Shown: positions 3,543-45,588 of the stretch, piece after piece
Numbering within the stretch: position 1 is the stretch's first letter
Layout of the letters: every line of letters begins with the position of its first letter
Assembly: GCF_001244545.1 (NCBI RefSeq)
Contig: NZ_LN852696.1
Location: 620,001-684,000 of the forward strand
From: Candidatus Stoquefichus sp. SB1
GTDB taxonomy: Bacteria; Bacillota_I; Bacilli_A; Erysipelotrichales; Coprobacillaceae
Reading direction: 5' to 3'
Length of the DNA stretch: 64,000 bases
Notes under the pieces: model-generated
What the model saw: the letters and a program-made list of their open reading frames with translations, nothing else
What the model was told of the DNA's origin: nothing
Database searches by the model: none
Translations under genes and position numbers: made by a program

Positions 3543-4559
3543 ATGGCAGTAAAAGTAGCAATTAACGGTTTCGGACGTATTGGACGTCTAGCATTTAGAC
3601 AAATGTTTGGTGCTGAAGGATATGAAGTAGTCGCAATTAACGATTTAACTGATCCAAAAATGTTAGCACATTTATTAAAATATGATTCAGCACAAGGGAG
3701 ATATGCTTTAGCAGATAAAGTAGAAGTTAAAGAATCTTCTATCGTTGTAGATGGAAAAGAAATCGAAATCTACAAAGAAGCAGATGCTTCTAAATTACCT
3801 TGGGGAGAATTAGGTGTAGATGTTGTTTTAGAATGTACAGGATTCTATGTATCTAAAGCAAAATCTCAAGCTCATATTGATGCAGGAGCTAAAAAAGTTG
3901 TTATTTCTGCACCAGCAGGAAATGACTTACCAACAGTTGTATTTGGTGTAAACGAAGGTATCTTAAAAGCTGATGATACAATTATTTCAGCAGCTTCTTG
4001 TACAACTAACTGTTTAGCACCTATGGCTAACGCTTTAAATAACTTAGCTAAAATCAAATCTGGTATCATGTTAACAGTACATGCTTATACTGGTGACCAA
4101 ATGGTATTAGATGGACCTCATAGAAAAGGTGATTTAAGAAGAGCACGTGCTGCTGCAGTTAACATCGTACCTAACTCAACTGGTGCTGCAAAAGCAATCG
4201 GATTAGTTATCCCTGAATTAAATGGAAAATTAATTGGTTCAGCTCAACGTGTACCTGTTCCTACAGGATCTACAACTATCTTAACTTCAGTTGTTGAAGG
4301 TGAAGTAACAGTTGAAGAAGTTAATGCAGCTATGAAAGCAGCAGCAACTCCATCATTTGGATATACTGAAGAACAATTAGTATCTTCTGATATCATTGGA
4401 ATCAACTATGGTTCATTATTCGATGCAACTCAAACTATGGTTAAACCATTAGATAATGGAACTACTGAAGTTCAAACAGTTGCTTGGTATGACAACGAAA
4501 ATTCTTATACTTCTAACATGGTTAGAACTATTAAATATTTCGCTGAATTAACTAAATAA
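3543..4559 (+). CDS. gapA: Glyceraldehyde-3-phosphate dehydrogenase
   Basis: Glycolytic enzyme that oxidises glyceraldehyde-3-phosphate to 1,3-bisphosphoglycerate with NAD+. It has the N-terminal NAD motif [16 protein letters not shown] and the active-site [15 protein letters not shown] with catalytic Cys near residue 153. It also has HAYTGDQ, and 338 residues is standard. Codon use is visibly biased (frequent AAC, ATC, TTC), as expected for a highly expressed gene in AT-rich DNA. AAGGAGG is present before the ATG. It is monocistronic, with its own promoter at 3478 and terminator at 4620. Confidence 0.97.
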
Positions 4560-4619
4560 TGCAATGAAAAGGGGGTAATCTAAAATAACTTGGGATTTCG
4601 TGAATCTCATCTATCAAAT

Positions 4620-4649
4620 AAAGTGGGGCTTAACTGACCCCACTTTTTT
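4620..4649 (+). terminator. gapA terminator
   Basis: A nine-base-pair stem AAAGTGGGG / CCCCACTTT with a nine-base loop is followed by a T-run. It lies 60 bases after the gapA stop. Confidence 0.88.
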
Positions 4650-4665
4650 GTATAGACTTTTTTAA

Positions 4666-4833
4666 TTAGAATCGTTCATTGGATTTTTCTAAAATCTTAT
4701 CTACTTTTGAAGATATTATCATGATTCTTCTATACATATTACTTATGTCTTCCAGTATTTCTTCCAGAACTTCATCTTCTTCAAGAATCCTATTCTCATC
4801 GTCCTCCAGAATAAGCTTGTATGTCTTTATCAT
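4666..4833 (-). CDS. Small acidic protein (55 aa) downstream of ISL3-type transposase
   Basis: A short open frame that begins MIKTYKLILEDDENRILEED and ends KVDKILEKSNERF. It is acidic in the first half and amphipathic, with a probable coiled or helical character. A strong AAGGAGG is placed eight bases before the ATG, inside the last codons of the transposase gene, so translation may be coupled to it. Stop of the transposase and start of this gene are two bases apart. Function unknown; position suggests an accessory protein of the element. Confidence 0.6.
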   Translation of the reverse strand: MIKTYKLILEDDENRILEEDEVLEEILEDISNMYRRIMIISSKVDKILEKSNERF

Positions 4834-4835
4834 TA

Positions 4836-6287
4836 TTATTTGTCCTCCTTTTTTATAATATTGAGATAATAGGTTGTATCACTGTTAAGTGAAAATAAGA
4901 TTTTGTTTCTGAAACGTTCCCAGTTCAGGTATCCATTTGATGCATGTTTGATCAGCTTGATGCTTTTATTGCGGTTCTCTACAATCGCAGTATTCATCTT
5001 TCTGTTTTTCTCCCTGTCTACAATCATAAAGGAATTGATGATTTCCTGCTTCCATCTTGTCAGAGTGTTGGCGAACTGGCTCATCTCTTCTATAGGACAG
5101 CACCTGAAGTCGATAATGATTTCTTCCAGTTTTTTCTTTGCGTCTTCATAATGACACTGTCTGTAGAAACGGGTAACACTGTCCTTAAGGTCATAGGCGA
5201 TATCAAGTTCTCTGTCATACTTCACCATATAATCAAACAGATCATAATAGTTGTAGTATCCTTCCAGTCTTCTGTTGTATCTCTTTTCCTCATTGGGATC
5301 AAATATTCTGTTGTCAGTTGAGATGAACATCCAGTTAAATTTTTTAAGCACATAGTAGTGTCTGGATGCTTCCTCGTATATATATTCCTCTTCTTTTGTA
5401 AGGCCGATATTCTTCTTTTTTTGTTGAAGTTCCCTGATCTGTGTCATGTACTTTTTCTGAGCTGATATTCTGACTTTATCCATTCTTCGCCCCAGTTCCT
5501 GAACAACATGAAACTTGTCGATACAGCAGCTTGCATTGGGAAAGACGTGTCTGGCAACAATCCTGTAGGTTTCCCACATGTCAAACGAACAGTACAGCAC
5601 CTTTTCACGCTCTTCTCTGGGAATAAGCATAAAGTAGCTGATCAGGTCATCCTTTTTACGTGTTGGCAGGACATCAACAATCTTCTGGTCAGTACAGTCA
5701 ACCAGCACACAGACAAATTTGCTTTTATAAGTCTTGAATGCATAAACCTCATCAATACCCAGACATGCAGGAAGAGGTCTCCTGGAAATACGGACATGAT
5801 CATCAAAGATATTGATGACGGAGGTTACTGAAACATGATAACGCCTGGCAACAGATGTGAATGTTTCATTGGGAAGCTTAAGATCTCTGAGGATATTGGA
5901 TACAGTCGCTACAGAGATTCTGGAACTTCCAAATACAAAGGGATTGTGTTCAAAGAATGTTTTGTGACAGTGAGGACAGCGATATCTTCTGGCTTCGTAT
6001 ATGATAAAGCACTGGGAATAATTAAGAACGGAATGAATAATCTTTTTTTGAGAATAATCCTTAATTTTATCAGTCATCTGACCACATACAGGACACTGAT
6101 GATATTTGACATTCAGTCTGATGCAGATGTAAATTCCATCTGACTGATGGGTGATTCTGAATTCCTGAATATCATCTTTTTCAAGATTGAAGAACTTGAG
6201 AATATCATTTTCGGAAATAATAGGCATAATGGTAGTATTGAGCAGTTCACCATCTTCCAAAAGAGGTGGTGCATCGATAGCCTTCAT
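4836..6287 (-). CDS. ISL3-family transposase
   Basis: DDE transposase of 483 residues. Near the N-terminus are two zinc-ribbon CxxC pairs (CPVCGQMTDKI and RRYRCPHCHKTFFE), then a helix-turn-helix (TSVARRYHVSVTSVINIF). Next come the catalytic segments GIDEVYAFK (first Asp), CSFDMWETYR with CIDKFHVVQEL, and the C-terminal NRNKSIKLIKHASNGYLNWERFR with the expected helix after the Glu. All three regions look intact. I chose the ATG at 6287 because AGGAG lies just upstream; the longer frame adds an unrelated hydrophobic stretch. It is unrelated at close range to the ISL3 transposase at 17972. Confidence 0.9.
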   Translation of the reverse strand: MKAIDAPPLLEDGELLNTTIMPIISENDILKFFNLEKDDIQEFRITHQSDGIYICIRLNVKYHQCPVCGQMTDKIKDYSQKKIIHSVLNYSQCFIIYEARRYRCPHCHKTFFEHNPFVFGSSRISVATVSNILRDLKLPNETFTSVARRYHVSVTSVINIFDDHVRISRRPLPACLGIDEVYAFKTYKSKFVCVLVDCTDQKIVDVLPTRKKDDLISYFMLIPREEREKVLYCSFDMWETYRIVARHVFPNASCCIDKFHVVQELGRRMDKVRISAQKKYMTQIRELQQKKKNIGLTKEEEYIYEEASRHYYVLKKFNWMFISTDNRIFDPNEEKRYNRRLEGYYNYYDLFDYMVKYDRELDIAYDLKDSVTRFYRQCHYEDAKKKLEEIIIDFRCCPIEEMSQFANTLTRWKQEIINSFMIVDREKNRKMNTAIVENRNKSIKLIKHASNGYLNWERFRNKILFSLNSDTTYYLNIIKKEDK

Positions 6288-6355
6288 ATAAAAATCTCCT
6301 TTCATCTTGTTTCTAAGACAAAAGTAACATAGAAAAAGGGAAAGGCATACAAAAG

Positions 6356-6775
6356 TCATGTGGGAAAATAGAAAAGACAAGGATGATTTCTGCGGTTCAT
6401 CCAGCATAAGGTTATGTATCTAAGGGGGATATCGTGATATTTATGGATGAGAAAAAAGCGATGAGAGGAATAAGTGAACTGAGAATAATTGACAGATGAA
6501 CAGATAACAGAGAAATCGGCAATTGAATAGGGAATCATTTCCTGAATAAGAACTGCATGAGTCACACCGCAATCAGTGCATTGAACTCTCAGTATTCTGA
6601 TAACAATATCTCTATTGAAGAAATCAGTATGACGATCATAGTAGGCATGAAAAGTCCAGCTGTGGGAATGACAACTGGAGCACTCAATTTTATTGAAGTT
6701 GATGCTTCTAATCAATCTGTCATAAACAAACTGATTGAAAGGCTTGATTTTTTTGTGAGTTTGAATTATTATCAT
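6356..6775 (-). CDS. Zinc-binding DUF6431-like protein, possibly truncated
   Basis: A 139-residue frame with two cysteine pairs, IECSSCHSHSWTF and LRVQCTDCGVTHAVL, followed by IPYS. This is the pattern I associate with DUF6431 proteins that accompany insertion sequences. The C-terminal third (VNYSQFTYSSHRFFLIHKY...) looks less like folded protein, so a frameshift or truncation is possible. The ATG at 6775 has only a weak GAAGAA upstream; a TTG at 6808 is an alternative. It lies 68 bases ahead of the transposase on the same strand. Probably an element-encoded accessory gene; function unknown. Confidence 0.5.
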   Translation of the reverse strand: MIIIQTHKKIKPFNQFVYDRLIRSINFNKIECSSCHSHSWTFHAYYDRHTDFFNRDIVIRILRVQCTDCGVTHAVLIQEMIPYSIADFSVICSSVNYSQFTYSSHRFFLIHKYHDIPLRYITLCWMNRRNHPCLFYFPT

Positions 6776-8596: not shown

Positions 8597-10033
8597 ATGG
8601 ATGATTTTAATTTTGAATATGAAAATAAAAAGAAAAGAAAAATGAGGAAAGAACCTCTATATATTATTTTATGCATTATTTGTCTTGTTGTAGGAGGGTT
8701 TGGTGGTTATTTTTTACGTGGAAGCGAAAAAAAGGAAACAAACTCAAAAGAATCAATTTATGATCAGATAGCACAAATTATTGCTAATGATTTTGTTGAT
8801 ACAACGGATACACAGTTAACATTGCAAGAACGTTTATTAGGTGGAATGGTTGCAGGATTGGGAGATCCTTATTCTTCTTATATGAATCAACAGCAATCAC
8901 AAAGTTTGGAAACACAAATTAATGGGACTTTTCAAGGTATTGGAATTACATATACGACCATTGATGGTAATGGTGCATTGGTTTTAGATGTTTATCAAAA
9001 TACACCAGCAGCACAGGCTGGTCTTTTAGCTGGTGATATGATTACACATGTTGAAGGAACTTCTATTGCTGATTATACATCTGAAAAAATAAAAAATGTG
9101 ATTCAAGGTGAGAATGGAACAAATGTATCACTAAGAATTCTAAGAGATGGAAAACCAAAAGACATAATAGCAAAACGAGCAAGTGTTGATACTTCAGTTG
9201 CTTACCAGATTAGACAATCAAACGAGACGAAGATTGGTTATTTACGAATTACAACATTTGGTGAAGGGATTGCAATCCTTATTGAAGATGCTTTAAAGGA
9301 TTTTCAAAAAGCAAAAGTAGAGAATATTGTGATTGATTTGCGTGGAAATGGTGGCGGTTATTTACAGGCGGCCCAGAATATTTTAGATTTATTTATTGAT
9401 GATGGAAAAGTGCTTTTTAGAACTGAGTCAAAACAAGGAAAAGAAGAGGTCTATAAAGCAACAAATCGGGAAAAATATACATTTGAGCATGGCTATATTT
9501 TGGTTAATGGAGAGAGTGCAAGTGCTTCAGAAGTTGTTACATCTGCTTTAAAAGAAGTTCTTAAATATCAGGTAGTTGGTGAGACAACATATGGAAAAGG
9601 AATTGCACAGTCACAAAAAATATTATCTGATTCTTCTATTTTGAAGTATACGAATGCAAAATGGTTAACTTCACAAGGAGAATGGATTAATGGAGTAGGA
9701 ATTAAACCTGATTATGAAGTCCATACAATGTCAATGAGTGATTTTAAAGTGAAGAAAGTAGAAAAGACATATCGCTATGATGATGTAGATGAAAGTATTG
9801 AATATATGCAGGTCATGCTTAAAGAATTGGGATTTGATGTGGATCGTCAGGATGGTTATTTTTCTAAAAAAACAGAAACAGCATTAAAAGCTTTTGAAAA
9901 AGCTTATCAGTTAAAAACAGATGGTCAATATGATAAAAACGATGCATTGATATTACTTAATGCTTTAACATATCATATTTACCAAAAGGTAGAGGATAAA
10001 TGTTATCAGAAAGTAGAAGAATTAGTAAAGTAA
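8597..10033 (+). CDS. S41-family C-terminal processing peptidase with PDZ and peptidoglycan-binding domains
   Basis: Membrane-anchored protease of 478 residues. A short cytoplasmic basic stretch is followed by one hydrophobic segment ([18 protein letters not shown]). A PDZ domain comes next, about residues 110-195 (TFQGIGITY ... [13 protein letters not shown]). The S41 core has RGNGGGY, the catalytic Ser near 309 in [11 protein letters not shown], and Lys near 333 in TYGKGIAQS. The last 80 residues look like a peptidoglycan-binding domain 1 ([11 protein letters not shown]...[11 protein letters not shown]). This is the CtpA/CtpB layout. GAGGTG precedes the ATG at 8597. It starts a run of co-directional genes reaching to lgt. 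Confidence 0.9.
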
Positions 10034-38051: not shown

Positions 38052-39377
38052 ATGAAGGGGAAAACTATAAATAAAAAAGTAGTTATAGGTATAGGCATTT
38101 GTTTGATTGTTATAATGGTGATAATGTTTATGAAGCAATCAAGATTAAAATTAAAATCAACTGATTTTACCATTGAGTATGGACAAAATATTTCAATGAA
38201 TGTAGGTGATTATTTAGATATTGATCATGATAAAAATAAAGAAATGATTTTATCCAAGGCACAATTGAAGGTGAATATTCCTAATGAGAACGATAAAGAT
38301 TATCCTGCTGTTGGTGAGTACCCAGCTTCAATCATATTTGAAAATGATAAATTTGATTTTAAGATTTATGTAAAAGATACAACACCTCCCCAATTTAAAA
38401 CATTTAAAAATATTTGTGAAACACCATTGAATGTTAAACCTCAGTATGGTCAAATATATACTGCTGATGATTTATCAAAAGTCACTATAACTTGTGATGA
38501 AGATAATATCAAATATGATTCTATTGGTGAATATAAGACTATTATCAAAGCAATAGATGAATATCAGAATGAAACAACAAAAGAACTAATTGTCAAAGTC
38601 ACTCAGCCTATAACAAAATGTAAACAAAAAAATCTTTATATGCAAATTAATACAACTGCTTTATTGGAAGTTGAAGTAAAAGGAAAAGACAAACCAATAT
38701 TTCAGACAAATGATTCGAATATTATAACTGTTGATGAAAATGGAAAAATTACTGCCAAAAATGCCGGGAAGGGTACAATTACAGTTTCGGCAAATGGTCA
38801 AGTGGATAGATGTCAGGTTAATGTTCAACCGATTAAAAACAGTGATTATGTGAAAATTAAAGACTTTATTCCAAATATATTTATAGATCTGCGATATGCT
38901 TCATCAAACAACTTTACAGGACAAGTTATTTATTCATTTAAGGATGCTTATTTACGATATGGAACGGTCCAAAAACTGATGAAAGTTCAAAATGATTTAC
39001 AAAGTAAAGGTTATAGTCTTAAGATATGGGATGCATATCGACCTTTCTCAGCCCAAAAGAAATTGTGGCAGGTTGTTAGTGATTCGCGTTATGTTGCTAA
39101 TCCATCAAAAGGACCAAGAACACATAATTTAGGATATACTGTAGATATCACAATGGTTAAAAAAGATGGAACAGAAATCCCTATGCCAACCCAGTTTGAT
39201 GAATTCTCCAAAAAAGCTGATAGAGATTATCAAGATATTCATAATTCAGAGGCAGTCAATAATGTAAGGCTATTAGAAAAGACAATGTATCAATATGGAT
39301 TCGTTGGTTATCAAAATGAATGGTGGGATTATAGTGATACAAATACCTATTCATATGTGGATTTCCAGCCTAAATAG
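38052..39377 (+). CDS. Membrane-anchored VanX/M15-type D-Ala-D-Ala peptidase with Ig-like domains
   Basis: Extracytoplasmic wall enzyme, 441 residues. One N-terminal membrane helix (VVIGIGICLIVIMVIMFM) is followed by about 120 residues of beta-rich repeats and a bacterial Ig-like (BIG2) domain near 215-260 (FQTNDSNIITVDENGKITAK). The C-terminal 150 residues are a VanX-like dipeptidase: FIDLRYAS, WDAYRPFSAQKKL, RTHNLGYTVDIT (two zinc ligands) and NEWWDYSD. In classic VanX the last motif is EWWH; here the His zinc ligand is Asp. The ATG at 38052 has AAGGGGA upstream. The 37856-38051 gap holds nothing else evident. Confidence 0.8.
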   Translation: MKGKTINKKVVIGIGICLIVIMVIMFMKQSRLKLKSTDFTIEYGQNISMNVGDYLDIDHDKNKEMILSKAQLKVNIPNENDKDYPAVGEYPASIIFENDKFDFKIYVKDTTPPQFKTFKNICETPLNVKPQYGQIYTADDLSKVTITCDEDNIKYDSIGEYKTIIKAIDEYQNETTKELIVKVTQPITKCKQKNLYMQINTTALLEVEVKGKDKPIFQTNDSNIITVDENGKITAKNAGKGTITVSANGQVDRCQVNVQPIKNSDYVKIKDFIPNIFIDLRYASSNNFTGQVIYSFKDAYLRYGTVQKLMKVQNDLQSKGYSLKIWDAYRPFSAQKKLWQVVSDSRYVANPSKGPRTHNLGYTVDITMVKKDGTEIPMPTQFDEFSKKADRDYQDIHNSEAVNNVRLLEKTMYQYGFVGYQNEWWDYSDTNTYSYVDFQPK

Positions 39378-39444
39378 TGAATAATTTTAAAACATTATTG
39401 TTAGTTTTTTTAGAAAAGAAAGTAAATAAGAGTTATAGTTACAG

Positions 39445-39481
39445 GAGTATTAGATTTATTTAAAGTCTAATACTCTTTTTG
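39445..39481 (+). terminator. Terminator of VanX-like gene
   Basis: GAGTATTAGA pairs with TCTAATACTC across an 11-base loop, followed by five Ts. Confidence 0.88.
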
Positions 39482-39532
39482 TTTAGAATAATGAAACCTT
39501 TCTTCGATGTTTTCTTTTTTTATTGAGTATCT

Positions 39533-39588
39533 AAAAAGGAAGAATTAATTTCATTGATGATACAATGATTTTAAAACTTCCTTTCTTT
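39533..39588 (-). terminator. Terminator of DUF3788 gene (repeat copy B)
   Basis: On the minus strand AAAGGAAG pairs with CTTCCTTT, with inner TCATTG / CAATGA and a T-run after. It matches copy A at 37806 almost base for base in opposite orientation. Confidence 0.75.
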
Positions 39589-39653
39589 GATTTGTTTAAA
39601 AATGGTCATAATCAATATCATTTCTTATCTAATATACTATAATTAAGAATTCT

Positions 39654-40067
39654 TTAATCTGTACACTTGATTGATAAAAGTGTCTGAATATCCTTATACT
39701 GTTGTGAACATGTAACACGATAATGAATCCATCCACCATCACCACATGGATATTTCTTATCAATGAGTTCTTGAGTATCTTTTTGCATTTGATTATAAAT
39801 AGATTGAAATTGTTTGTCTGAAAGTCTCATCATAACTGTAAAAGCATTTTTCTCAGCAAAAATATTACATATAAGCTTTTTCTTTTTTCGATGAGCAATT
39901 GCCCACCCATAATGCTTTCCATAAGGAAATACAATTGTTTGTACAGTATCATAGGTGTTTGTTAACCATTCATTGATCATAGTAAATAATTCTGCATTTT
40001 CTTCGCAATAAGTTGTCATGTCTGTGATTGATGGAACAACTTGTTTGTCTAACATTCTCTCGTACAT
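39654..40067 (-). CDS. DUF3788-family protein
   Basis: Cytoplasmic protein of 137 residues. It shows the DUF3788 pattern: an aromatic-rich middle, YGWAIAHRKKKKLICNIFAE, then NAFTVMMRLSDKQ and the C-terminal GGWIHYRVTCSQQYKDIQTLL. Function of the family is unknown. GAAAGGAG lies before the ATG at 40067. It is isolated, with the invertible segment upstream; a leftward promoter at 40348 would reach it if not stopped by the hairpin at 40183. Confidence 0.72.
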   Translation of the reverse strand: MYERMLDKQVVPSITDMTTYCEENAELFTMINEWLTNTYDTVQTIVFPYGKHYGWAIAHRKKKKLICNIFAEKNAFTVMMRLSDKQFQSIYNQMQKDTQELIDKKYPCGDGGWIHYRVTCSQQYKDIQTLLSIKCTD

Positions 40068-40182
40068 TTGTGCTCCTTTCTTATTTTGTTTTTTGATTAA
40101 GAATAGATTTTTTATAATAAATATTTTATGATAAAAAGGCATGTGTGTCTATAGATTTGAATGACAACATCTTTTTTGGTAC

Positions 40183-40229
40183 AAAAAAAGTATCATTTTT
40201 CTTTTTTAGTAGTAAAAAGATACTTTTTA
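40183..40229. terminator. Bidirectional terminator beside the invertible segment
   Basis: AAAAAGTATC pairs with GATACTTTTT, with inner T/A-rich pairing. T-runs follow on both strands. On the minus strand it stands between the leftward promoter at 40348 and the DUF3788 gene. Confidence 0.75.
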
Positions 40230-40274
40230 TATGATATATAGATAAAGTTTATATAGTGTATCAGTTTGATTATC

Positions 40275-40301
40275 TTTCTTGAAGTATCCTAATATAAGAA
40301 A
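40275..40301 (+). repeat. Left inverted site of the invertible segment (27 bp)
   Basis: Arms TTTCTT and AAGAAA surround the core AGTATCCTA. The reverse complement of the site at 41674-41700 agrees at 23 of 27 positions, with identical arms and core. The structure, two short inverted arms around an asymmetric core, is that of a tyrosine-recombinase crossover site. Confidence 0.85.
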
Positions 40302-40347
40302 GATATTTATATATCTATACTATAAGGAATCATTCATTATTTATTAC

Positions 40348-40376
40348 ATTTTATGAAATATATGACTCTTTGTCAA
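40348..40376 (-). promoter_or_regulatory. Strong leftward promoter inside the invertible segment
   Basis: On the minus strand TTGACA (40371-40376) and TAAAAT (40348-40353) are separated by 17 bases, a near-consensus promoter. It points away from the recombinase and the capsule operon, out over the left site toward the terminator at 40183. The remaining 40305-40495 sequence is AT-rich with no other gene. Confidence 0.8.
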
Positions 40377-40495
40377 GGTATTAATGTTAATCGTGTGATG
40401 AAAATATGACAAATTAATAAGTATGACTCATTATTTATAACAAATCAAATTTATTTATCGTCAATATTCTCGTCATTGGAAAGGAGGTGTTAATA

Positions 40496-41623
40496 ATGCC
40501 AAGGCGAGGAGAAAATATATATAAAAGAAAAGACGGAAGATGGGAAGGTCGATTTATTATTGACAGAGATGTATCTGGTAAAGCAAAATATAAATCTATA
40601 TATGGAAAAAGTTATAGTGATATTAAAAGAAAGTTAGAAATTGCAAAACAGAACTCAATATCTCTACAATATTTTCATGAATATCATTTTTCTTTATTTT
40701 GTATAGAATGGCTAAAAGAACATCGTAAAAACATTAAAGAATCAACATATATAAAATATTATAACATTATATATATGTATATTATTCCTGATTTAGGTGA
40801 AATTCAATTCAATAAAATATCTATTCAGATGATGAATCAATTTATTCAAAAATTATTAAATCAAGGTTCCCAAAATGGTCAAGGTTTATCAACGAAATCA
40901 GTAGCAGATGTTATTTCAGTATTCAAAAATATAATGAGATATATTGAATGCTATTATGGTCATATCCATTTTGATTATCATCAAATGACAGTCAAACAAA
41001 ACAAAGAAAAACGCATGAGAATTTTAAACTCTCAAGAACAACAAAAGCTATGCCAGTATATTTTAGGACATCAAACACTTATTCATTTAGGAATACTACT
41101 AGCACTTTCAACTGGAATACGAATTGGAGAATTGTGTGCATTAAGATGGGATCATATTTATCTTGATGAGGAAGAACTTATCATTGATAGAACAATGCAA
41201 CGTATTCAAAATAAAGATAATAACAATAACAAAAAAACCAAAATCATCATTACAACTCCCAAAAGTCAATGTTCCATAAGACGAATTCCTATTCCTCAAG
41301 ATCTCATTCAATTATTAAAACCATTTGAATGTCATCAAAATGAGTTCTTTTTAACTGGAGATATAGAAAAGTACATAGAACCTAGATGTTTAGAAAATAA
41401 ATTTAAAGTTTTAATGCAACAAAATAATATTGAAAATATGCATTTTCATGCATTAAGACATACTTTTGCAACAAAATGTATTGAACTAGGTTTTGATGTG
41501 AAATGTTTAAGTGAAATATTAGGACATGCAAATGTCAATATTACACTTAACAAATATGTTCATCCTTCATTTGCTTTAAAACGTGATTATATGAATAAAA
41601 TCAATCAGTTAATTAACGTCTAA
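40496..41623 (+). CDS. Tyrosine recombinase/integrase, likely DNA invertase of the segment
   Basis: Site-specific recombinase of 375 residues. An N-terminal AP2-like arm-binding region (GENIYKRKDGRWEGRFI) and a SAM-like core-binding domain (about 65-165) precede the catalytic domain. Catalytic residues are visible: Arg in TGIRIGELCALRW, Lys/SxRxIP in SQCSIRRIPIP, HxxR in HALRHTFATK, then LGHANVNITLNKYVH with the second His and nucleophile Tyr. GGAGGTG precedes the ATG at 40496; the frame begins MPRRGENIYK. It lies entirely between two inverted 27-bp sites and directly upstream of CpsC/CpsD genes. No phage genes are near, favouring an invertase role. Confidence 0.92.
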   Translation: MPRRGENIYKRKDGRWEGRFIIDRDVSGKAKYKSIYGKSYSDIKRKLEIAKQNSISLQYFHEYHFSLFCIEWLKEHRKNIKESTYIKYYNIIYMYIIPDLGEIQFNKISIQMMNQFIQKLLNQGSQNGQGLSTKSVADVISVFKNIMRYIECYYGHIHFDYHQMTVKQNKEKRMRILNSQEQQKLCQYILGHQTLIHLGILLALSTGIRIGELCALRWDHIYLDEEELIIDRTMQRIQNKDNNNNKKTKIIITTPKSQCSIRRIPIPQDLIQLLKPFECHQNEFFLTGDIEKYIEPRCLENKFKVLMQQNNIENMHFHALRHTFATKCIELGFDVKCLSEILGHANVNITLNKYVHPSFALKRDYMNKINQLINV

Positions 41624-41673
41624 AATATGGTCATTGATTAAAAAAAGTTTATATATCAAGAAAATTATCAATG

Positions 41674-41700
41674 TTTCTTAGAGTAGGATACTCTAAGAAA
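41674..41700 (-). repeat. Right inverted site of the invertible segment (27 bp)
   Basis: TTTCTTAGAGTA, GGA and TACTCTAAGAAA form a near-perfect palindrome. Its central TAGGATACT is the reverse complement of the left site's AGTATCCTA. As RNA it would be a 12-bp hairpin without a T-run, so it is not a good terminator. Confidence 0.85.
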
Positions 41701-41742
41701 ACGAATTTTATTCATTAATTGAAAAAAGAGGGGAATGATAGG

Positions 41743-42483
41743 ATGGATATACAGACGGACCAATATGATGATGAAATTGAGATAGATTTAAAAGCTTTAT
41801 TTTTACATGTCAAACATTATTGGTATGTTGTTGTGATAACTTCTTTGATAGGTATTCTTTGTGCAGGTATTTATTTATGGAAGTTTGAAGTTCCACAATA
41901 TGAAGCCAATTCAATGATTTATATGAGAGGATCGAAAACTTCAGTTTCTTTACAAGATTTACAAATCGGTTCTGAATTAACAAACGATTATGAAATTATT
42001 TTAAAAAGTCGTCCCATTTTAGAGAAAGTTATTAAAAAATTAGATTTAACAATGAGTTATGTTGAATTAGGACAATGTATTCAAATTTCTAATCCTACTA
42101 ATACTAGAATTCTAAAAATGACTGTGACAACTGATGATGCAATTATGTCAAAGAAAATTGCTGATACACTAGCCAGTTATGGTATGGATAGTATTAAAGA
42201 AATTGATTCTAAACAACCTTATTTGGTTGAAAATGCGATAGTCAATAATCAAAAAGTGAATACATCACCCAAGATTGTTTTTTTAATGGGCTTATTATTG
42301 GGATGTTTTGTTGGTGTTGGTGCCTTATTTGTTCAATTTATTGCTAATGATAAAATTTGTTCAGTTGATGATGTTGAGAAATCGTTAGGTATTCCTGTTT
42401 TAGCAGCAGTTGTAGAAAGTAAGGTTATTAAAAGAGAAAAAAGAAATGCACGTAAAGTGATTGGACAGAAGGTGCTGCAATGA
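41743..42483 (+). CDS. Polysaccharide co-polymerase, Wzz/CpsC type
   Basis: Membrane protein of 246 residues that sets chain length of capsular or exopolysaccharide and activates the CpsD kinase. One membrane helix lies near residue 30 (YWYVVVITSLIGILCAGIYL) and another near 185 (IVFLMGLLLGCFVGVGALFV), with an external domain between (YEANSMIYMRGSK...). This is the standard Wzz layout. AGAGGGG precedes the ATG at 41743. It is 42 bases from the right inverted site and overlaps the kinase gene by four bases. Confidence 0.9.
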   Translation: MDIQTDQYDDEIEIDLKALFLHVKHYWYVVVITSLIGILCAGIYLWKFEVPQYEANSMIYMRGSKTSVSLQDLQIGSELTNDYEIILKSRPILEKVIKKLDLTMSYVELGQCIQISNPTNTRILKMTVTTDDAIMSKKIADTLASYGMDSIKEIDSKQPYLVENAIVNNQKVNTSPKIVFLMGLLLGCFVGVGALFVQFIANDKICSVDDVEKSLGIPVLAAVVESKVIKREKRNARKVIGQKVLQ

Positions 42484-43148
42484 AATTAGGAAAAGCTGAA
42501 ATTAAGAAAAGACATGATGATAAGTTTCTTTTGGAATCTTTTAAAACGCTTAGAACCAATCTCTTGTATACAAAAGATATGAATACTATTGCAATTACAA
42601 GTGCAACACCTAATGAAGGAAAGACAACTTCGGCATTCTATTTAGCGAAAAGTTATGTTGAAATAGGTAAGAAAGTTGTTTTAATTGATTGTGATTTAAG
42701 AAAAGCAAGTTTAAGAAAATTTTTTACTGTACGGGAAAAAACAACAGGAATAAGTGATTTTTTGAGTCAGCAGACACAAGATTTTTTATATGAAACAAGT
42801 GAAGAAAATTTATATGTTATTTTTGCAGGTAAAGTTCCACCTAATCCTACAGAATTATTGACGGGTTCAATGTTTGAAAAGCTTATTGAAACCCTGAAAC
42901 AGGAGTTTGATATTATTATTATTGATACTTCACCAATGAGTGCAGGAATTGATGCAACAATTGTAGGTAGAGTAGTTGATGGTATTGTTCTTGTGATACG
43001 TAATAACTTTGTTAAAAAACATACTGTTCAACGAGTGAAAAAAGAATTAGAGAGAAATGATTGTCGGGTTGTAGGTGCAGTATTGAATAGAATTGAAAAA
43101 CATCAGGCTGATTATTATGAGTATGGGTATGGCGAATACTACAAATAA
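42480..43148 (+). CDS. Tyrosine-protein kinase, CpsD/BY-kinase type
   Basis: Cytoplasmic bacterial tyrosine kinase of 222 residues. Walker A is TPNEGKTTSAFYLAKSY near residue 42, Walker A' VVLIDCDLRKASLRKFF, and Walker B DIIIIDTSPM. The C-terminus is a tyrosine cluster, YYEYGYGEYYK, the autophosphorylation site. It works with the CpsC-type protein upstream to control polysaccharide length and export. Four-base overlap upstream. The tyrosine-coding end overlaps the start of the LCP gene in another frame. Confidence 0.93.
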   Translation: MKLGKAEIKKRHDDKFLLESFKTLRTNLLYTKDMNTIAITSATPNEGKTTSAFYLAKSYVEIGKKVVLIDCDLRKASLRKFFTVREKTTGISDFLSQQTQDFLYETSEENLYVIFAGKVPPNPTELLTGSMFEKLIETLKQEFDIIIIDTSPMSAGIDATIVGRVVDGIVLVIRNNFVKKHTVQRVKKELERNDCRVVGAVLNRIEKHQADYYEYGYGEYYK

Positions 43149-44109
43149 GTATAAATTATTCATTGCTGTTATTATTGCTGTGCTATGTTGTGCTGTTGTA
43201 GGAATTGTGATTGTGAGTACAAATGGAGATGTTGAAAGTGAAACAATTGATGATGATGTGAATAGTTATCAGCTTATAACAATTCATAATCAGAATTATC
43301 AATTTAATTCGGATTTAGAATTGGTTTTGTTTTTAGGGATTGATACTGTTCAAAATAATGAAGTCGGTCAATCTGATACAATTCAATTACTTCTCATGGA
43401 TCAAGCCCAGAAAAACATGAAAATATTATCCTTATCAAGGGATATTATGACCGATATACGTGTTTTTAATGCTTCAGGGGAAGAGTTAGGATGGAAACAG
43501 CAGCATCTTGGATTAGCATATTCTTATGGTCAGACATCAGAGCAAGGCTGTCAATTAACTATAGATGCTATTTCTAAAATGCTTGGAGATATTCCTATTA
43601 TTAATTATGCAGCTATGAATATGAATTCTATTAAAGATTTACAAAATATTGTAGGAACATTGTCAATTGACTTAACAGAAGATTATAGCGCATTTAACTC
43701 TCAATGGAAAAAAGGAAAAACAATTCAATTAAAGCCTGAAGATGCTGAAAAGTTTTTAAGAACAAGAGATACACAAATGGACTATTCTAATACATTGAGA
43801 ATGGAAAAACATAAAGTTTATATAGAGGCTTATTTAGAGCAATTAAAGAGGATGTTAAAAGATGATTTTCAACAAGTGATTCAAAGATTATATCACTTTT
43901 ATGAAAATACAGTTACGAATATAACTTTAGAAGAAATTTCAGATTATGCTGAAATGGTTATGAATTACCAAATTGATTATGAACAATCCTTTTATACTAT
44001 AGAAGGTAAAGAACAAGTAGGGAAATATCATGATGAGGTTATAATTGATCAAAATCAATTACAAGATCTCAAATTAAAATTGTTTTACAAAAAGGAGAGA
44101 GAAAAATGA
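43117..44109 (+). CDS. LytR-CpsA-Psr (LCP) family glycopolymer ligase
   Basis: Membrane-anchored enzyme of about 330 residues that attaches teichoic acid or capsule polymers to peptidoglycan. A single helix near the start (KLFIAVIIAVLCCAVVGIVI) is followed by the LCP domain: LFLGIDTVQ, SDTIQLLLMDQAQKN, ILSLSRDIMTDI with the key Arg-Asp, and FLRTRDTQMDY. Several ATGs (43117, 43123, 43129) overlap the CpsD tyrosine codons; I chose 43117, with AGG nine bases upstream. A four-base overlap leads into the next gene. Confidence 0.88.
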   Translation: MSMGMANTTNKYKLFIAVIIAVLCCAVVGIVIVSTNGDVESETIDDDVNSYQLITIHNQNYQFNSDLELVLFLGIDTVQNNEVGQSDTIQLLLMDQAQKNMKILSLSRDIMTDIRVFNASGEELGWKQQHLGLAYSYGQTSEQGCQLTIDAISKMLGDIPIINYAAMNMNSIKDLQNIVGTLSIDLTEDYSAFNSQWKKGKTIQLKPEDAEKFLRTRDTQMDYSNTLRMEKHKVYIEAYLEQLKRMLKDDFQQVIQRLYHFYENTVTNITLEEISDYAEMVMNYQIDYEQSFYTIEGKEQVGKYHDEVIIDQNQLQDLKLKLFYKKEREK

Positions 44110-44810
44110 AGAAATTAACAAAAGTCGTAGCAGTTGTGATGACATTGTGCATTTGTTTAACACCAGTATTTGCAAAGCCAAGTATTTCACACAACGGAAC
44201 TATAGACACTAAAGAAATTTTAATAGATGGAAAGAAAGTTGATGCAAATCAGGTGACTGCTGGTTTTAAAAGTGATTTTTCATCTGTTGTCATTAAAAAA
44301 GAGATAGTAGAAGCTATCAAACAAATCAATGCAGAGCCTGAAAAATTAGTGGAAATCTTGAATTCTACAAATACACAAGTACAAGGTTTAAATGGTTTGA
44401 AATTAGAAGAATTAGAAGTTTTAACACAAGTTCAAGATTTAACACTTATTGATAAAACAACAGGTGAACCAATGAAAGATGTTAAAAATGTTACAATTAC
44501 TTGGGAAGTTCCTAATTTAGTAAAAGGATTAGGAGATGTTAAAATTCTTCATTATAGTACAGTTCGTAATGTATGGGAAATTTTAACACCTACAAGCATT
44601 GATTTTGCTACAAATTCAATTACACAGTATTTCCAGGATTTATCACCAGTTGCAGTTGTTTATGTACCTTCTACAGATGATGGTGGTCTAGGTTCAAAAC
44701 CAAATAAACCAGCAACAGCGGATACAAGTGTCATTGCACCGATTGCAGTTGTATGTGTTATATCAGGGGTTTTAGCTTTGACGTTGTTAAAAAAGAAATA
44801 TGAAAAATAA
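44106..44810 (+). CDS. Secreted surface protein with sortase-like C-terminal signal
   Basis: Exported protein of 234 residues. A signal peptide (KVVAVVMTLCICLTPVFAKP) is cleaved near residue 24. The mature part is a beta-rich domain of unknown family. The C-terminus reads KPATADTSVIAPIAVVCVIS, then a hydrophobic stretch ending in LLKKKYEK, the layout of a cell-wall sorting signal with KPATAD in place of LPxTG. A GGAGAG site precedes the ATG. Last gene of the capsule-type operon; perhaps a wall-anchored partner of the polysaccharide. Confidence 0.7.
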   Translation: MKKLTKVVAVVMTLCICLTPVFAKPSISHNGTIDTKEILIDGKKVDANQVTAGFKSDFSSVVIKKEIVEAIKQINAEPEKLVEILNSTNTQVQGLNGLKLEELEVLTQVQDLTLIDKTTGEPMKDVKNVTITWEVPNLVKGLGDVKILHYSTVRNVWEILTPTSIDFATNSITQYFQDLSPVAVVYVPSTDDGGLGSKPNKPATADTSVIAPIAVVCVISGVLALTLLKKKYEK

Positions 44811-44913: not shown

Positions 44914-45588
44914 TTAGAATTTATCAAGATTAAAGCTTGGTGGAACATCATTAGGATCAAAGTTTTGTCCATCTAAATTAGATAAGTCAAAATAGATACG
45001 TGAATCTTTTGTGACTCCCCAATTTTGTTGAGAACGTGCAGATTCCTGAATTTTATTAAATGCCTGTCTAAACATTGTATTGTGTGCTTCTTCACGATTT
45101 AATAAGAAATCAATTGTTTCTCTAACTCCTTGATCATCAATTTGACGATAAAGATTTTCATAAACAACTTTTGCACGTTGTTCTGATGCAATGTCTGATA
45201 AGATATCAGCAGCTAAATCACCTGTTTCATTAACATATGCAGCAGTCCATAAATAGCCAGATGCATTTGCTAACATAGGTGTAAGTCCTGATAAGACATG
45301 GGCTTCAACACTACCAATTGTAGCATCTTGAGCACATGGCTGACCACCATTTAATAAATTGATTAATTCAGCAATCATTTCTAAATGACATAATTCTTCA
45401 GTTGCAATATCCAAGAATAAATCTCTTATTTCTTTATCTCGAATTCTAAAACTTTGTGCAAAATATTGCATAGCAGCTTTTAATTCTCCCTGTGGGCCAC
45501 CTAATTGTTCTTGTAAGAGTGTTGCATAATTAGGATTAGGTTTATCCACTTTAACAGGATGTAAATAACGACTTTCATATTTAAACAT
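44914..45588 (-). CDS. Manganese catalase family protein
   Basis: Di-manganese, ferritin-like protein of 224 residues that breaks down hydrogen peroxide; related to spore-coat CotJC. Metal-binding Glu/His are in GELKAAMQYFAQSF, ATEELCHLEMIAEL, VNETGDLAADILSDIASEQRA, and NREEAHNTMF. The start at 45588 has GAGGTGATTACT upstream; a GTG nine bases earlier is rejected. It stands alone, with its 5' end facing the YitT-type gene. Confidence 0.92.
   Translation of the reverse strand: MFKYESRYLHPVKVDKPNPNYATLLQEQLGGPQGELKAAMQYFAQSFRIRDKEIRDLFLDIATEELCHLEMIAELINLLNGGQPCAQDATIGSVEAHVLSGLTPMLANASGYLWTAAYVNETGDLAADILSDIASEQRAKVVYENLYRQIDDQGVRETIDFLLNREEAHNTMFRQAFNKIQESARSQQNWGVTKDSRIYFDLSNLDGQNFDPNDVPPSFNLDKF

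Follow-up and report, generated by a model that had tools for sequence, protein, structure and literature searches.

Organisation of the locus

The window analysed here comprises 64,000 nucleotides and contains two 27-bp sites in inverted orientation, which enclose a single tyrosine recombinase gene and precede a four-gene operon that begins with a CpsC gene. The left, distal site (40275-40301, plus strand) reads TTTCTTGAAGTATCCTAATATAAGAAA and has variant arms, and the right, operon-proximal site (41674-41700, minus strand) is a near-perfect palindrome whose reverse complement reads TTTCTTAGAGTATCCTACTCTAAGAAA. The two sites agree at 23 of 27 positions and differ at the other four; identical in both are the core AGTATCCTA and the arms TTTCTT/AAGAAA. 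A degenerate site pattern gave exact matches only at these two places in the 64-kb window (none expected from 100 shuffles) and at no further place in the 3.59-Mb genome, so that a multi-site shufflon is not present at the CpsC locus. The exact site sequence was not found in viral contigs.

The recombinase gene (40496-41623, plus strand) encodes a protein of 375 amino acids from an ATG start and is preceded by the ribosome binding site AAGGAGG (40481-40487, plus strand). Domain matches comprise Phage_integrase and a SAM-like core-binding domain, and the catalytic residues R209, K256, H318, R321, H344 and Y354 are all present in family-invariant columns. This R-K-H-R-H-Y set, together with the integrase fold, places the protein among the Tn916/Tn1549-Int-like recombinases, and the nearest solved relative of its core-binding and catalytic domains is Tn1549 Int (Z 18.8, rmsd 3.4, 272 residues). 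The N-terminal domain is predicted to adopt a beta-beta-beta-alpha fold, as is expected of integrase arm-binding domains. A sequence comparison of the N-terminal 55 residues with the PDB gave no match, and a VIA alignment of the recombinase with lambda Int spanned residues 1-348, but with a high rmsd.

Promoters were called as matches to the consensus and scored out of 12. The best match across positions 39300-42000 is TTGACA-17-TAAAAT (40376-40348, minus strand; 11/12), an outward promoter within the segment that in the assembly faces left, with the CpsC operon behind it. Just beyond the distal site lies an AT-rich, terminator-like hairpin (40185-40228) with a T-run on the minus strand and a fold z of -3.6 on the minus and -1.9 on the plus strand; with the segment oriented as assembled, outward transcripts would end there. 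On the other side only 42 bp separate the right site from the CpsC start codon. No fixed promoter was found in this interval, and the 443 bp before CpsC hold no promoter of at least 10/12 as assembled, either in the window or in the sister species G001. Inversion of the segment in silico brings an 11/12 promoter upstream of CpsC, with the -10 element at 41622-41627 and its end 115 nt before the ATG at 41743. The arrangement is thus that of an inverton: short inverted repeats flank a promoter-bearing segment, and its inversion aligns the promoter with a neighbouring operon that otherwise lacks one. The anatomy agrees with an earlier note on this DNA, whose coordinates and counts for the two sites, intact recombinase and near-consensus promoter pointing away from the operon are all correct; the terminator that it placed ahead of this promoter corresponds to the hairpin, and the reflected -10, expected near 41622 and about 120 bases before CpsC, falls where predicted.

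The operon starts with a CpsC/Wzz-type chain-length regulator (41743-42483, plus strand; PF02706, TIGR01006), followed on the same strand by a CpsD-type BY-kinase or polysaccharide tyrosine autokinase (42480-43148; TIGR01007, above cut-off) and a glycopolymer transferase of the LytR-CpsA-Psr (LCP) family (43123-44109; PF03816). The fourth gene (44106-44810, plus strand) encodes an exported protein without family match, whose C-terminal membrane anchor resembles a sorting signal (PATADT...KKKYEK); it is kept in G001, and the corresponding operon of G011 has a counterpart with 41% identity. The operon ends before a convergent gene at 44914. The pairing of Wzz/CpsC with the BY-kinase CpsD is that of capsule biosynthesis operons, and an LCP gene is present as well, but none of the four genes is a glycosyltransferase, flippase or polymerase. 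The label of a capsule-type operon, used in the earlier note, is therefore too strong. Its further claim, that the assembly shows the operon in an off or low state, is very likely correct as far as the promoters go, since none of at least 10/12 lies upstream; off here means off from the promoter of the cassette, and with no terminator found between recombinase and CpsC, read-through from the recombinase gene is possible.

Two CpsC genes are present in the genome, together with nine initiating sugar transferases that all lie outside the CpsC operon, and with such numbers more than one polysaccharide may depend on the operon. CpsC-CpsD-LCP also occurs without a recombinase directly upstream in several other genera of the bacterial family, and G011 has CpsC, CpsD and the fourth gene. 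Judged from this distribution, the cassette looks like a switch that was added before an older operon in the host genus.

Conservation in the sister species and in gut Firmicutes

The only other species with this locus is G001 (L126), in which the recombinase is 67% and CpsC 84% identical to the window proteins. The site next to CpsC is palindromic and identical in sequence to the right site of the window, and the distal site equals the variant site of the window except for the last base. The outward promoter is retained (TTGACA-17-TAGAAT), and inversion in silico again places an 11/12 promoter, absent as assembled, 117 nt before CpsC. Beyond the distal site there is a hairpin (8938-8990, z -5.7) stronger than that of the window, and then a beta-glucosidase-type gene that is convergent on the cassette, at the place where the window has a DUF3788 gene. 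L126 has the same orientation as the window.

More distant relatives, with about 39-49% identity, were collected from at least about 80 named genome contigs, mostly of Lachnospiraceae and other gut Clostridia. Strong inverted repeats surround the recombinase in 58 of the 69 distinct cassettes for which both flanks are present, compared to 1 of 207 shuffles. These repeats are mostly of the form TTTCGTAGAGTATnnnACTCTACGAAA and typically lie about 229 bp before the recombinase start and about 75 bp after its stop. An outward promoter of at least 11/12 occurs in 72% of 58 upstream regions versus 1.3% in shuffles; for the recombinase's own direction the value is 1.7% of these regions. A further conserved element is the direct repeat GTCA-N8-GTCA (40460-40475, plus strand), which 48 of 58 relatives carry ahead of the ribosome binding site, versus 0.26% in shuffles, with a spacer of 8 in nearly all of them, and which is absent from all nine shorter recombinases without the N-terminal 60 residues. 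On the strength of this conservation and of the predicted N-terminal fold, which is that of arm-binding domains, we propose that the repeat is a candidate arm-type site bound by the N-terminal domain of the recombinase.

The genes behind other cassettes are diverse and include a CpsB-led capsule operon, nucleotide-sugar genes, a LoaP-like gene, a hybrid histidine kinase, a PP2C phosphatase, a mucin-binding surface protein, a TnpB-like protein and a resistance gene that is presumably erm(B), the name being taken from the sequence itself and the family match being rRNA adenine dimethylase. The same cassette and neighbourhood upstream of this erm(B)-type gene were observed in six genera, Butyricicoccus, Blautia, Agathobaculum, Negativibacillus, Eisenbergiella and Brotaphodocola (L081-L087), which is a case of recent horizontal spread. 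In the copies with gene order seen, the promoter faces away from erm(B). The TnpB-like protein, which has a TNB domain but scores below the TnpB cut-off of NCBIfam, adjoins the cassette in L075, L089, L091, L098, L102, L107, L109 and L124, contigs of several Lachnospiraceae and others, in some of which polysaccharide genes come next; it is possibly a phase-variable RNA-guided protein. One of these contigs, L089, carries an exact inverted duplicate of about 445 bp on either side of the cassette (4322-4766 and 6175-6619); the duplicated stretch takes in the site and the first part of the TnpB-like gene, of which one copy is full length and the other truncated. Relatives of the recombinase are also encoded on nine viral (IMG/VR) contigs (L192-L200).

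Opposite orientations of orthologous loci

Related genomes differ in the side of the cassette on which orthologous operons lie, and the breakpoint falls within the site core. In L127 (G035) two LoaP/NusG-like antiterminators head a polysaccharide operon on the promoter side, whereas in L157 (G069) and L128 (G031) the orthologous LoaP-led operon lies on the 3' side of the recombinase. The cassette itself is collinear between L127 and the other two (74% and 70% nucleotide identity with L157 and L128, respectively), and all three loci come from the same bacterial family as the host. Base-by-base comparison revealed that the variant outer half-site (TCTTATATTAAA / TCTTAAATTAAA) remains with the operon flank and that the inner part of the site is exchanged, which locates the break within the site core. 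Flipped arrangements were also detected between L047/L053 and L064, with up to five syntenic genes, between L089/L098 and L091/L102/L107/L109/L124 and others, and between the erm(B) cassette L081 and the viral contig L193 (82% over 560 bp of flanking DNA, opposite orientation). L192 and L193 are identical and thus uninformative on flipping between those two.

Both orientations of the cassette accordingly exist in nature among its relatives, with breaks at the repeats. As far as genome comparison can tell, this shows that inversion occurs in the cassette family, including at a LoaP-led polysaccharide operon of the same bacterial family, and the 1.4-kb segment of the window can very probably invert as well and switch the CpsC operon on and off. 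In the comparison with relatives, which the earlier note proposed, the reverse arrangement is not seen in the sister species; it is seen across the family in the orthologous operons on opposite sides.

The assembled orientations are unevenly distributed, with 30 loci having a target on the recombinase side only and 7 on the promoter side only (p = 0.0002). The bias may mean that in the material sequenced flipping is uncommon, favours one direction or is disfavoured by selection; selection, biased recombination or the use of read-through could each be its cause. A third site copy was observed in L129 (8424-8446; G027), 4.2 kb upstream of the cassette and with the LoaP-led operon beyond it, a layout as if a larger inversion had used the third site and the operon-side site.

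A probable promoter switch and its alternatives

We are confident in reading 40275-41700 as a self-encoded invertible promoter switch before the CpsC operon. The reading, which was the central proposal of the earlier note, is supported by the sister species, the layout of the family and the flipped orthologous loci; at the locus itself we infer it from these comparisons. It is unlikely, by comparison, that the segment no longer flips, with a functional or decaying recombinase and an operon expressed by read-through from the recombinase region. Such a locked state would fit the common orientation of both species of the genus, the missing terminator between recombinase and CpsC and the 30:7 bias in the family, but it leaves a conserved promoter pointlessly firing into a terminator. 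Moreover, all catalytic residues are intact, and the sites, the promoter and the post-inversion distance to CpsC have been kept although the recombinases are only 67% identical.

In another reading the cassette would serve two targets, a left-facing DUF3788 gene in one state and the right-facing CpsC operon in the other. The DUF3788 gene (39654-40067) is in line with the assembled promoter, genes face out on both sides in 24 of 65 loci and L089 has two copies of one gene. The hairpin with its T-run, however, stands between promoter and DUF3788, and the left neighbour in the sister species is a different gene that converges on the cassette, which makes such a double switch very unlikely here. 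Hardly credible is a remnant of a mobile element, in which the recombinase would serve an integrative element as its integrase and the inverted repeats would be the ends or attachment sequences of that element. Recombination between inverted sites gives inversion instead of excision, no excisionase, relaxase or cargo is located between the sites, the relatives retain sites, promoter and layout before unrelated operons, and the flipped orthologues break at the sites. These observations outweigh the kinship with the integrase of the conjugative transposon Tn1549, the closest solved relative, and the identical cassette beside erm(B) in six genera, which shows that such cassettes can travel.

In the favoured invertible switch, the recombinase would bind both inverted 27-bp sites and recombine them in the shared core (about TATCCTA), thereby flipping the 1.4-kb segment on which its gene lies together with a single strong outward promoter. 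As assembled, this promoter would fire left into the terminator and the operon, which has no promoter of its own, would be off or low and receive at most read-through of the recombinase transcript. In the flipped orientation the promoter, then about 115 nt before CpsC, would drive the operon (on), and the recombinase transcript would enter the same bidirectional hairpin. The likely result is that the chain length and attachment of at least one surface polysaccharide, or of several, would be under phase-variable control.

Promoter inversion by tyrosine recombinases and the control of capsules by invertons are well known. The capsule promoters of Bacteroides (Mpi, local invertases) resemble the present case in that promoter inversion controls surface polysaccharide operons; these invertible operons are often led by UpxY antiterminators, and relatives in the same bacterial family as the host likewise have operons led by LoaP/UpxY-like proteins. 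Hin is a serine recombinase that uses Fis and an enhancer, and we know of no GTCA-N8-GTCA arm-like repeats reported for Hin or for the inverton of Providencia stuartii. The Tn1549/Tn916 integrases provide the nearest solved fold for the core-binding and catalytic domains, and the predicted beta-beta-beta-alpha N-terminal domain of the window recombinase is of the kind expected for arm-binding domains; they differ in that no transposon lies between the window sites, where inversion is expected and not excision and integration. Bacteroides belongs to an unrelated phylum, and its Mpi, a serine recombinase, acts at many sites (PMC5903667), whereas the window has a tyrosine recombinase inside its own inverton. 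Recombinase genes within the invertible segment, as in the window, are those of Hin in Salmonella and of the 844-bp inverton of P. stuartii (PMC5903667), the latter with 14-bp imperfect repeats and at fimbriae. The RecV/Cdi switches of Clostridioides difficile share tyrosine recombinase-driven inversion in a Gram-positive gut bacterium, but the short invertons on which RecV acts in trans are scattered (PMC5903667). In a large read-based survey, inverton group 139, nearly all from Clostridia, had the strongest link to a tyrosine recombinase group (invertase group 35), and its orientation changes over passages (PMC11892184). As in the present case, the recombinase is of the tyrosine type, lies beside inverted repeats and belongs to gut Firmicutes, but the two examples whose coordinates are given in print are about 255 bp long and cannot enclose a recombinase gene (PMC11892184), unlike the cassette of 1.4 kb with the gene inside.

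A limited literature search returned no account of a cassette that combines these sites, the outward promoter and the GTCA repeat, no relevant match for the site sequence and nothing relevant on phase variation in Coprobacillus. While the class of mechanism is familiar, neither the portable cassette nor its spread nor the arm-like element is. More tentatively, and with considerable doubt, these cassettes might be widespread, largely undescribed and portable self-flipping switches of 1.4 kb, composed of a recombinase, arm-type and core sites and one outward promoter, that in gut Firmicutes have been placed before genes for polysaccharides, signalling and surface proteins and before TnpB-like and erm(B) genes. 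In the host the cassette might then toggle a stand-alone CpsC-CpsD-LCP operon through which several polysaccharide loci may be governed as by a master switch, and the GTCA-N8-GTCA repeats close to the outward promoter might couple binding of the recombinase to promoter activity. If so, one short element would render any downstream operon phase-variable and, in gut Firmicutes, for which few such switches have been described, would have been reused before many surface and signalling genes as well as at least one for resistance. It would here toggle one of only two CpsC loci in a genome where nine loci have initiating sugar transferases, so that one flip could alter several surface glycans. The GTCA-N8-GTCA element offers a direct, testable handle on the control of such recombinases.

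Two further features of the host genome (G000) were noted. Its nine initiating sugar transferases are distributed over loci L170-L178, most of the loci retrieved having short NusG/LoaP-like ORFs ahead of the glycan genes; nine such transferases with two CpsC genes suggests many alternative surface polysaccharides. One of these loci contains a second, short candidate inverton (L171:7241-7423; G000:C2 213241-213423) with 24-nt inverted arms 135 bp apart, which directly follows another tyrosine recombinase, precedes a NusG-like-led polysaccharide locus and has inside it a match to TTGCAA-17-TATAAT that points away from this locus.
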